Part shown: positions 8,370-10,679 of the stretch, piece after piece | Layout of the letters: every line of letters begins with the position of its first letter | Position numbering within the stretch: position 1 is the stretch's first letter | Source: an uncultured Pelagibacteraceae bacterium | GTDB lineage: Bacteria > Pseudomonadota > Alphaproteobacteria > Pelagibacterales > Pelagibacteraceae | Assembly (NCBI GenBank): GCA_902543575.1 | Contig: CACBYV010000002.1 | Coordinates: 1 to 64,000, forward strand | DNA length: 64,000 nucleotides | Direction of reading: 5' to 3' | Notes under the pieces: model-generated | What the model was told of the DNA's origin: nothing | What the model saw: the letters and a program-made list of their open reading frames with translations, nothing else | Database searches by the model: none | Program-made: the position numbers and the translations under genes

Positions 8370-8398
8370 TTGACAATCTTCTTTAGAATAATTATAAA
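8370..8398 (+). promoter_or_regulatory. katG sigma-70 promoter
   Basis: TTGACA (8370-8375) and TATAAA (8393-8398) are separated by exactly 17 nt, which is close to a perfect housekeeping promoter. The predicted start is near 8405. The first operator-like repeat covers the spacer and the -10 element, and the second begins at the predicted start. The leader then contains AAAGGAG as ribosome-binding site ahead of the katG ATG at 8442. Confidence 0.75.
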
Positions 8399-8421
8399 AA
8401 ACGAATTAGAATAATTATAAT
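8382..8421 (+). promoter_or_regulatory. Tandem Irr-box-like operators before katG
   Basis: Two identical 15-nt copies of TTAGAATAATTATAA occur at 8383-8397 and 8406-8420, 23 nt apart. Each is an imperfect palindrome. The first, extended to TTTAGAATAATTATAAA, matches TTTAGAA-N3-TTCTAAA with one mismatch. Spacing of about two helical turns would place two dimers on the same face of the DNA, one over the -10 and one over the transcription start. The adjacent irr gene makes its product the natural candidate binder. The sequence repeat is direct observation; the identity of the protein is inference. Confidence 0.65.
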
Positions 8422-8441
8422 ATTAAAGGAGATATATAATA

Positions 8442-10679
8442 ATGAGTGCGGAATTTCATAAAAGTAAAACATTTAAATCAGCAGAAATAAGTAAGTGCCC
8501 TTTTACGGGCGCAGGTACACCAGCAAAATTTAGCGCTGGTAGAGGACAAACAAATAGAGATTTTTGGCCAAATAGTTTGAATTTGAAAATTTTAAGTCAG
8601 CACTCGAATTTATCAAATCCAATGGAGAAAAAATTTAATTATTCTAAAGAATTTAAAAAACTGAATTACAAAGCACTCAAAAAAGATTTAAACAAATTAA
8701 TGACAGACTCACAAGATTGGTGGCCAGCAGATTACGGTCATTATGGTCCTTTATTTATTAGATTAGCATGGCACGCAGCAGGTACATACAGAACAGGTGA
8801 TGGTAGAGGGGGAGCTGGAACAGGTAATCAAAGGTTTGCACCGTTAAATGCTTGGCCTGATAATGTTAATCTGGATAAAGCCAGATTACTTTTGTGGCCA
8901 ATAAAACAGAAATATGGAAAAAGAATTTCTTGGGCAGATTTATTTATACTAGTTGGAAATGTAGCCTTAGAGTCTATGGGCTTTAAAACGTTCGGTTTTG
9001 GAGCAGGAAGAACTGATATCTGGGAACCAGAAGATGATATTTACTGGGGTTCAGAAAAAGAAATGTTAGGTGTTAAGAGATACAGCGGAAAAAGAGATCT
9101 TGAACAACCATTGGGGGCTTCTCACATGGGATTAATTTATGTAAATCCACAAGGTCCAGATTTTAACCCAGACCCATTGAAAGCAGCTCATGATATTAGA
9201 GAAACATTTGGACGAATGGCAATGAATGATTATGAAACAGTTGCACTAGTTGCTGGTGGTCATACTTTTGGAAAATCTCATGGTGCTGCACCTGAATCAC
9301 ATAAAGGACCTGATCCAGAGGCATCAAGAATTCAAGATCAAGCAACTGGTTGGAATAGTAATTACAAATCAGGAAAAGGTGTACACGCAATAAGTAGTGG
9401 TATTGAAGGGGCATGGACGCAAACACCAACACAATGGGATATGGGTTACTTTGATTGTTTATTTAACCATGAATGGGAATTGACAAAAGGACCTGCTGGA
9501 GCATTTCAATGGACTCCAAAAAAGAATGGTCAGAGAATTAAAATGGTTCCTGATGCTCATGATAAAAGTAAAATGCATCCTCCAATGATGCAAACAACTG
9601 ATTTATCTTTGAGAATGGATAAAAGTTATGGACCAATTTCAAAACATTTTTATCAAAATCCAGATGAATTTGCTGATGCATTTGCAAGAGCTTGGTTTAA
9701 GCTTACTCATAGAGACATGGGACCAAGAGCATGTTATTTGGGTAGCGAAGTACCAAAAGAACAATTAATTTGGCAAGATCCTATAGATAAACCAAAATAT
9801 AAACTTAAATCAAAAGATATAAGAGATTTAAAATCAAAGCTTTCAAAATCAAAAATCTCTATTTCTGATTTAGTTTCTACGGCTTGGGCTTCTGCTTCTA
9901 CATACAGAGGTTCTGACAAAAGAGGTGGAGCAAACGGAGCAAGAATTATGCTTGAGCCTCAAAGAAGTTGGAAAGTCAATAACCCTAAAAAACTTTCAAA
10001 GGTTATTAATGCTTTACAAAAAATTAAGAAAAAATTTGATACAAATAAAAAATCAGTCTCAATGGCGGACCTTATAGTATTAGGTGGAAATGTAGGAATA
10101 GAGATGGCAGCAAAAAAAGCTGGTCATAAAATTCAGGTTCCATTCACACCTGGAAGAGGAGATGCAAGACAAGAACAAACAGATGTAAATTCATTTGGAT
10201 TACTTGAGCCGCAAGCGGATGGTTTTAGAAACTACATGAAAAAAGGTAAATCTAATGTTTCTGCTGAGGAAAAATTAATTGATAAGGCACAATTAATGGG
10301 ATTAACGGCACCAGAGATGACAGTTCTTGTAGGAGGAATGAGAGTTTTAGATACAAACTATGATAGTTCTAAAAATGGAGTTTTCACAAAAAAACCTGGA
10401 ACTCTATCAACAGATTATTTTGTAAATCTTCTTGATATGAGTACCACTTGGAAAGAAACTGACAAATCTGAACAATATTTTGTTGGTAAAGATAGAAAGT
10501 CTAAAAAAACTAAGTGGAAAGGTTCAAGAGTTGACCTTATTTTTGGTTCAAATTCTCAATTAAGAGCATTAGCTGAAGTCTATGCCTGCAAAGACTCATT
10601 TGACAAATTTGTTAAAGACTTTGTATCTGCATGGGTCAAAGTGATGAATGCAGATAGATTTGATTTAAGATTAAACTAG
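8442..10679 (+). CDS. katG: Bifunctional catalase-peroxidase
   Basis: KatG is a heme enzyme that dismutates hydrogen peroxide and also acts as a broad peroxidase. The 745-residue product has the two tandem peroxidase-like halves of the family. In the first, the distal site is Arg107, Trp110 and His111 (RLAWH), and the proximal heme ligand is His274 ([12 protein letters not shown]). Tyr233 and Met259 are positioned to form the Trp110-Tyr233-Met259 adduct needed for catalase activity. The second half lacks heme ligands, as usual. A strong AAAGGAG site precedes the ATG. It is preceded by tandem Irr-like operators and followed after 19 nt by an iron-dependent hydroxylase-like gene. Confidence 0.97.

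Follow-up and report, generated by a model that had tools for sequence, protein, structure and literature searches.

In Gram-positive bacteria, catalase is under the control of PerR, a Fur-family repressor which carries the same His/Asp metal ligands as the regulator considered below. Among Alphaproteobacteria, the Irr-box targets described in Rhodobacter sphaeroides include mbfA, which codes for a rubrerythrin-like protein, and ccpA, which codes for a cytochrome c peroxidase; katE of the same organism has no Irr box, gave no gel-shift binding by Irr and is controlled by OxyR, its rise in an irr mutant being judged indirect (PMC3413700). In Magnetospirillum gryphiswaldense katG is under Fur, and less IrrB is linked in Magnetospirillum with increased heme catalases and peroxidases (PMC5459824). 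Seven Irr-bound genes were reported in Brucella by DNA affinity purification sequencing (DAP-seq), and the word catalase is absent from the accessible part of that text (PMC10374146). Here we describe an irr-katG locus of an uncultured member of the Pelagibacteraceae (Pelagibacterales, hereafter SAR11), located in the first 64,000 nucleotides of contig CACBYV010000002.1 (assembly GCA_902543575.1), a stretch which is called the window as a whole. Judging from its sequence and that of its relatives, the segment 8370 to 8421 likely represents an Irr-controlled promoter of katG. The genome (G000; 1.19 Mb, 33 contigs) is 93.6% complete. The promoter features, named from their sequence, and the gene itself are the following:

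8350 to 8366, plus strand: possible degenerate upstream box, five mismatches; in sister lineages an intact box lies here, 3 nt 5' of TTGAC
8370 to 8375, plus strand: -35 hexamer TTGACA of the katG promoter
8382 to 8398, plus strand: Irr-type box 1, TTTAGAATAATTATAAA, one mismatch, its right half including the -10; conserved in SAR11 katG promoters
8393 to 8398, plus strand: -10 hexamer TATAAA, within box 1
8405 to 8421, plus strand: Irr-type box 2, ATTAGAATAATTATAAT, three mismatches, over the predicted start
8426 to 8433, plus strand: Shine-Dalgarno-like AAGGAGAT
8442 to 10679, plus strand: katG, coding for a bifunctional catalase-peroxidase (a heme enzyme; NCBIfam TIGR00198, 1141.5 bits, above cut-off), with its ATG at 8442

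A first-pass annotation of this DNA had proposed that a promoter with a 17-nt spacer is overlapped by twin palindromes, the first of them close to the pattern TTTAGAA-N3-TTCTAAA, and all of this is exact. The hexamers are 17 nt apart, the 15-mer TTAGAATAATTATAA lies at 8383 to 8397 and recurs identically at 8406 to 8420, 23 nt further on, and the first copy extends to a 17-mer with a single mismatch to the pattern. The differing base, an A in place of C, falls in the right half and turns that half into a -10. The second repeat, taken as a 17-mer, differs at three positions. From the hexamers, transcription would start near 8405. In 20,000 first-order Markov sequences of 105 nt each built from the window, a site with at most one mismatch arose with a probability of 0.0005, and such a site together with a second one of at most three mismatches with a probability of 5e-5. 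The whole window holds three sites with at most one mismatch, at 7903 in the irr promoter, at 8382 before katG and at 30382 within an open reading frame (ORF).

The putative Irr-type box covers the -10 together with a portion of the -35/-10 spacer. It is conserved among SAR11 katG promoters, and its occurrence follows that of irr: genomes with irr have the box, and those in which no Irr is found lack it, with one exception. KatG was detected in 235 of 397 Pelagibacterales genomes (genomes and loci are given by our G and L numbers), and the DNA upstream of katG was compared in 110 distinct genomes, after removal of three duplicate genomes and four gene fragments. This sample comprises every katG locus (19) in the first 61 genomes, 28 new loci, every third further match listed (40 fetched, three of them repeats), and 30 genomes mostly of other genera, four of which gave the fragments dropped. 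Each of the 19 loci from the first 61 genomes has a site with at most three mismatches. Where irr lies directly upstream of katG (93 loci), the box has at most one mismatch in 88, at most two in 92 and at most three in all 93, and in the three genomes with irr elsewhere (G050, G111 and G123) katG keeps a box within two mismatches. In contrast, 13 of the 14 katG promoters from genomes in which no Irr was found (G061, G064, G065, G075, G089, G124, G131, G189, G343, G361, G364, G374, G376 and G414) have no site under four mismatches, no Irr meaning here nothing better than weak Fur-like matches, which eight of the 14 genomes gave. Among 80 irr loci from records named Pelagibacteraceae, which are those nearest to the window and not independent of each other, katG adjoins irr and carries a one-mismatch box in all 80. 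The objection that the repeats might lack conservation in related promoters thus fails for the box on the -10, but applies to the second copy outside the window lineage. As a control, the reversed pattern was found with at most one mismatch in 0/110 loci (0/93 of those with adjacent irr) and with at most two in 1/110, and it reaches three mismatches or fewer in 57/110, so that the three-mismatch limit is weak and the one-mismatch count is the informative one. In Markov shuffles of the same katG regions, sites with at most one mismatch arose in 0.05% and with at most two in about 2%.

The controls bear on a simpler account, in which nothing more than an AT-rich sigma70 promoter is present, its palindrome coming from chance and from conservation of the -10. 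It is true that the right half of the box is the -10 itself, TATAA lying within the box at 93/110 katG loci, and that the looser 15-mer TTAGAANNNTTNTAA shows no genome-wide enrichment (15 matches against 16 of its reversed control). This account nevertheless appears extremely unlikely. The left half of the box, TTTAGAAT, lies inside the spacer and is not required by sigma70, yet it is nearly invariant, with 1.67-2.0 bits per base. In the 88 aligned promoters the bases of the 17-mer hold 1.67-2.0 bits each and its centre 0.39, whereas the flanking bases mostly stay below 0.9 with peaks of 1.34 and 1.58; because the rows were chosen for at most three mismatches and for TATAA in the right half, conservation is circular for the right half and less so for the left. 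Moreover, the 13 box-free promoters of irr-less genomes come from genomes of similar base make-up, one-mismatch sites are as rare in shuffles and reversed controls as given above, and second boxes occur at two positions which exclude each other. Finally, boxes within two mismatches precede katG in 4 of 28 other Alphaproteobacteria, against 0.0004 per region in shuffles. Since TTAGAANNNTTNTAA is not enriched, and nine of its 12 matches outside irr-katG lie inside ORFs, the motif alone means little away from the irr-katG locus. A genome-wide regulon drawn from the motif was set aside as uninformative for the same counts. In addition, a scan for TTTAGAANNNTTATAAA over the 397 genomes served only for choosing 20 sites among the matches listed.

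The window genome codes for three Fur-family proteins, the Irr-type protein, a Fur/Mur-like one on contig C3 and a third member on C10, and Fur-type sites are also AT-rich inverted repeats, which are the grounds for supposing that one of the other two proteins reads the boxes. We consider this highly unlikely. Weak Fur-like matches were found in eight of the 14 irr-less genomes and 13 of the 14 promoters are nonetheless box-free, so that the presence of Fur brings no box; moreover, the box stays with katG in the three genomes where irr lies elsewhere. The association with Irr is also suggested by a KatG tree of 50 rows, in which irr and box agree in 50/50. Three changes are needed for irr and three for the box, and two of them fall on well-supported branches, both in step. 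The tree left out 23 near-copies of the window (L040-L062), four fragments, and 40 loci with only the first 20 KatG codons (L067-L106, including G414 and the irr-less G124). This co-inheritance is suggestive and not significant.

TTGAC lies 15, 16 or 17 nt 5' of the -10 in 85 of the 93 irr-katG promoters (31, 14 and 40 loci, respectively), and the position of the box over the -10 would fit repression. Irr is described as acting either way according to the position of its box (PMC7762939), and four promoters (L012, L013, L094 and L095) have their single box 5' of TTGAC, as might suit an activator. An activating rather than repressing Irr is very unlikely, however, with TATAA at the -10 included in the box at most katG loci and with the end of the mbfA transcript inside a box having been read as a repressor position (PMC3413700). 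The first-pass annotation had seen in the tandem boxes a textbook repressor arrangement; the part resting on the -10 box stands, since that box fits repression and is conserved, and the part resting on the second copy is restricted to the lineage of the window. The copy at +23 (at most three mismatches, over the start) occurs in 20/85 promoters, a copy directly 5' of TTGAC (at most three mismatches) in 27/85, both together in 0/85 and neither in 38/85. Among the close named relatives of the window, 39/80 have the +23 copy. The window lineage combines a downstream second box with the possible upstream remnant listed above. The tandem pair of predicted boxes does exist but is confined to a lineage; what is conserved is the box on the -10. 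In L015, L017, L105 and L106 a further palindrome, TTGAGAAYGATTCTCAR, begins 20 nt 5' of the upstream Irr-type box of katG.

A box behind irr is also found in SAR11 genomes without katG, where another scavenger gene follows. Rubrerythrin is a non-heme di-iron protein. Irr was found in 18 of the 19 katG-less SAR11 genomes searched (G046 gave none), and in all 18 a rubrerythrin gene lies 3' of irr on the same strand, 97-120 nt on. All 18 gaps carry a box within two mismatches, four of them exact, which ends 3 nt 5' of TTGAC in 17 (L138 has only a remnant there). The core of this arrangement, box-cta/ctg-TTGAC, is common to the irr-rubrerythrin gaps and to the katG promoters of lineages with an upstream box, and on these grounds katG apparently took the Irr-controlled slot of rubrerythrin. 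The simplest history, as drawn from gene order, would be that irr-rubrerythrin is old and that katG replaced rubrerythrin behind the same operator in many SAR11. No rubrerythrin gene is present in the window or in 157 katG- or irr-side loci, which is a statement about those loci only. In G123 and G111 (L216, L217), where katG lies elsewhere, an exact box with TTGAC precedes a gene which is not recognised as rubrerythrin, although rubrerythrin would be expected in this position. In G050, with katG also elsewhere, neither box nor rubrerythrin lies behind irr. Outside SAR11, rubrerythrin lies behind irr in 16 of 28 distinct loci (27 genomes), and the 16 gaps have a box within two mismatches in seven, with three mismatches in two and none in seven. 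Exact TTTAGAANNNTTCTAAA was found in 18 other Alphaproteobacteria at a single place, between irr and rubrerythrin. A GATAAT-type inverted repeat (for example TTGATAATAATTATCAA; some are imperfect) lies 5' of the Irr box after irr in L147-L151, L153-L155 and L216, and is possibly a Fur site at rubrerythrin.

The regulator gene and its promoter are annotated as follows:

7887 to 7892, plus strand: inferred -10-like TATAAT of the irr promoter, without a clear -35 (from sequence)
7903 to 7919, plus strand: Irr-type box TTTAGAATAGTTTTAAA, one mismatch, in the irr promoter just 5' of the irr ATG; proposed autorepression site
7926 to 8336, plus strand: irr, coding for an Irr-type Fur-family regulator (Pfam FUR, 71 bits), ATG start; a TTG at 7920 upstream is also open

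The neighbour of katG had been called irr, and its product is indeed a Fur protein of Irr type by its best NCBIfam models, IrrA (126-127 bits, cut-off 150) and Irr (119 bits, cut-off 170), the next-best family reaching 63 bits. Both scores fall below the curated cut-offs, so that we name it Irr-type and not a certified member. Many records under the name Pelagibacteraceae bacterium contain a protein 96-99% identical to it. Upstream of irr, a site with at most three mismatches is present in 73/90 katG-type loci and in 10/10 katG-less loci of the same genus, so that a scan before both genes in relatives, as first proposed, returned a box ahead of irr in most loci besides the conserved one ahead of katG. 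The PerR metal ligands H37, D85, H91, H93 and D104 (numbering from PMC4700492) align to H37, D86, H92, H94 and D105 of the window Irr, which are present in 151-152 of 152 aligned Irr rows, mostly from SAR11. An HXH heme motif is also present (HHH at 92-94; H92 and H94 in 152/152 rows). The N-terminal Cys-Pro heme regulatory motif was found in 0/210 extracted Irr sequences; it is limited to some Irr proteins, among which the second heme site varies (PMC7762939). With five PerR-type ligands kept and no Cys-Pro motif, release by heme and release by oxidation are both possible. Heme is one release route given in the literature (PMC7762939), and oxidation at the iron site of the His cluster, whose ligands match those of PerR, is the other, described for Bradyrhizobium japonicum Irr (PMC4700492).

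Irr might accordingly be mainly a peroxide sensor of the PerR kind, H2O2 oxidising its metal-bound His/Asp site and inducing katG, with iron and heme secondary. This is a version of our best explanation which differs in the signal, and we regard it as a serious possibility while leaning the other way. It is favoured by the five conserved ligands and the lack of a Cys-Pro motif, by the second-best solved relative of the window Irr (2fe3, a peroxide operon regulator), and by the B. japonicum residues that match, which form a non-heme iron site activating H2O2 (PMC4700492). Moreover, irr is followed by katG or by rubrerythrin, no OxyR is evident, and rubrerythrin mRNA of Pelagibacter ubique was not repressed under iron limitation (PMC2864753). 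On the other hand, B. japonicum Irr has the same ligands (PMC4700492), and Irr has been reported to sense heme and to bind DNA even when its co-regulator is absent (PMC7762939). The first-pass annotation had tied peroxide defence to iron or heme supply instead of OxyR. Its statement on OxyR agrees with the genome, in which none is evident at 93.6% completeness: the one LysR-type match has GcvA and YafC as best models, below cut-off, a result based on the best 25 of 55 models. If it is taken to exclude a peroxide signal, it goes beyond what the sequence shows: Irr keeps the five PerR-type ligands, and peroxide activation is described for B. japonicum Irr.

For the Irr-controlled promoter that we favour, the following mechanism is proposed. 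An Irr dimer on box 1 would exclude RNA polymerase from katG, and box 2 in the window lineage, or the upstream box in some sister lineages, would be a second, turnover-prone operator strengthening repression through a second dimer. The box in the irr promoter would limit Irr synthesis by autorepression. Inactivation of Irr by heme or iron repletion, by oxidation at the PerR-like metal site, or by both, would allow katG to be transcribed, and this derepression might include the hydroxylase and DUF2061 genes described below.

Outside SAR11, the katG promoters of the 28 best-scoring genes of a class search carry a box within three mismatches in 5/28 and within two in the four already cited. Eight of the 28 are preceded, within about 700 nt, by a LysR-type match, and none of these eight has a box. 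In as many as 26 of these 28 genomes a protein scores above the IrrA cut-off, so that the presence of irr hardly discriminates here; the two below it (G454 and G460) have no box. In G530 irr lies directly downstream of katG (L215). An alphaproteobacterium of 56% GC (G430, L208) carries a pair of Irr-type boxes, spaced 31 nt, upstream of a katG which does not adjoin irr. In another family of Pelagibacterales (f2; L167-L176), TTTAGAATTATTATAAA lies 61 nt before an MBL-fold hydrolase-like gene in 8 of 10 stretches and inside an ORF in the other two; this gene may code for a persulfide dioxygenase.

Besides the weak three-mismatch limit, the lack of enrichment of the looser motif and the sub-threshold scores of the regulator, several observations weigh against an Irr-controlled katG promoter. 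The pattern used throughout is a presumed Irr consensus. The exception among the irr-less genomes, G414 (L097; 83% complete), keeps the box with no Irr found. Four of the 93 irr-katG promoters have their box solely upstream of TTGAC, as said, and another four have no clear TTGAC. The katG rows are related and include two to three independent switches only, for which reason we claim no significance. Outside SAR11, katG of G646 (L218) lies directly behind irr and the gap has no box. At 17/90 katG-type loci, and at 9/9 loci of another family, no box precedes irr. Finally, in P. ubique under iron limitation rubrerythrin mRNA rose 1.57-fold and Irr showed no significant change (PMC2864753), a rise which would be at odds with simple repression under iron starvation if the P. 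ubique gene is the one behind irr; the GATAAT-type repeats in some irr-rubrerythrin gaps, as possible Fur sites, make this datum not decisive. In G414, fabA adjoins katG and irr is missing from between them.

Around irr and katG, the minus strand carries a fabI-like and a fabB-like gene, both recognised by eye, followed by fabA, and the plus strand carries irr, katG, a beta-hydroxylase-like gene and a DUF2061 gene in this order. The remaining annotated features are:

7352 to 7852, minus strand: fabA, divergent neighbour of irr (Pfam FabA, 145 bits)
10699 to 11295, plus strand: aspartyl/asparaginyl beta-hydroxylase-like gene, possibly co-transcribed with katG (Pfam PF05118, 37 bits)
11295 to 11537, plus strand: DUF2061 membrane protein gene, possibly on the katG transcript (Pfam PF09834, 26 bits)

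A beta-hydroxylase-like match lies within 400 nt 3' of katG in 44 of 58 irr-katG loci, and a DUF2061 match on the same strand lies behind katG in 52 of them. Neither was matched at the 11 katG loci which lack an adjacent irr and extend 800 nt or more downstream. One or both genes are present in the katG fragments L118 and L134, whose upstream side is not covered.

In the literature searched no title dealt with how katG of SAR11 is switched, nothing was found on SAR11, Irr and catalase together, and the combination described here (katG next to irr, in the slot of rubrerythrin, its -10 covered by an Irr-type box) was not met there; an earlier prediction of the rubrerythrin site, in a 2006 study of Irr, is possible. 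If the proposal is right, the catalase supply of these bacteria would be set by a regulator where iron, heme and peroxide meet, which would matter for iron-limited waters and for the question of which organisms clear peroxide for others. The exchange of rubrerythrin for KatG behind a kept operator would likewise offer a case, open to testing, in which one enzyme replaced another while its control was kept. More tentatively, and as an idea we would not yet back, the SAR11 irr locus may be a self-contained peroxide-defence cassette in which Irr substitutes for PerR and the scavenger, rubrerythrin or KatG, is exchangeable; katG lineages would have changed the enzyme while keeping the switch, with the second operator turning over upstream and downstream around a fixed -10 box.

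With regard to known systems, the locus resembles the Irr-box (iron control element, ICE) regulon of Rhizobiales and R. sphaeroides in having a Fur-family Irr, a box near the promoter and peroxide-related iron targets. Unlike R. sphaeroides katE, however, SAR11 katG carries the box itself and directly follows irr. It also resembles the mycobacterial furA-katG locus, in which a Fur-family regulator gene and katG form a conserved locus (PMC2358910), but the regulator is Irr-type and not FurA, and SAR11 katG is predicted to have a separate promoter, with boxes, whereas furA-katG of Mycobacterium tuberculosis is a single operon. Compared with PerR and catalase, the ligands are the same and the target is again a peroxide scavenger, while the protein and the box are of Irr type and peroxide sensing is only a candidate here. 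The closest arrangement is irr-rubrerythrin of katG-less SAR11 and other Alphaproteobacteria, which occupies the same place and, where boxes occur, has the box close before TTGAC; it differs in having rubrerythrin in place of the heme enzyme KatG and, outside SAR11, in its 7/16 box-free gaps.

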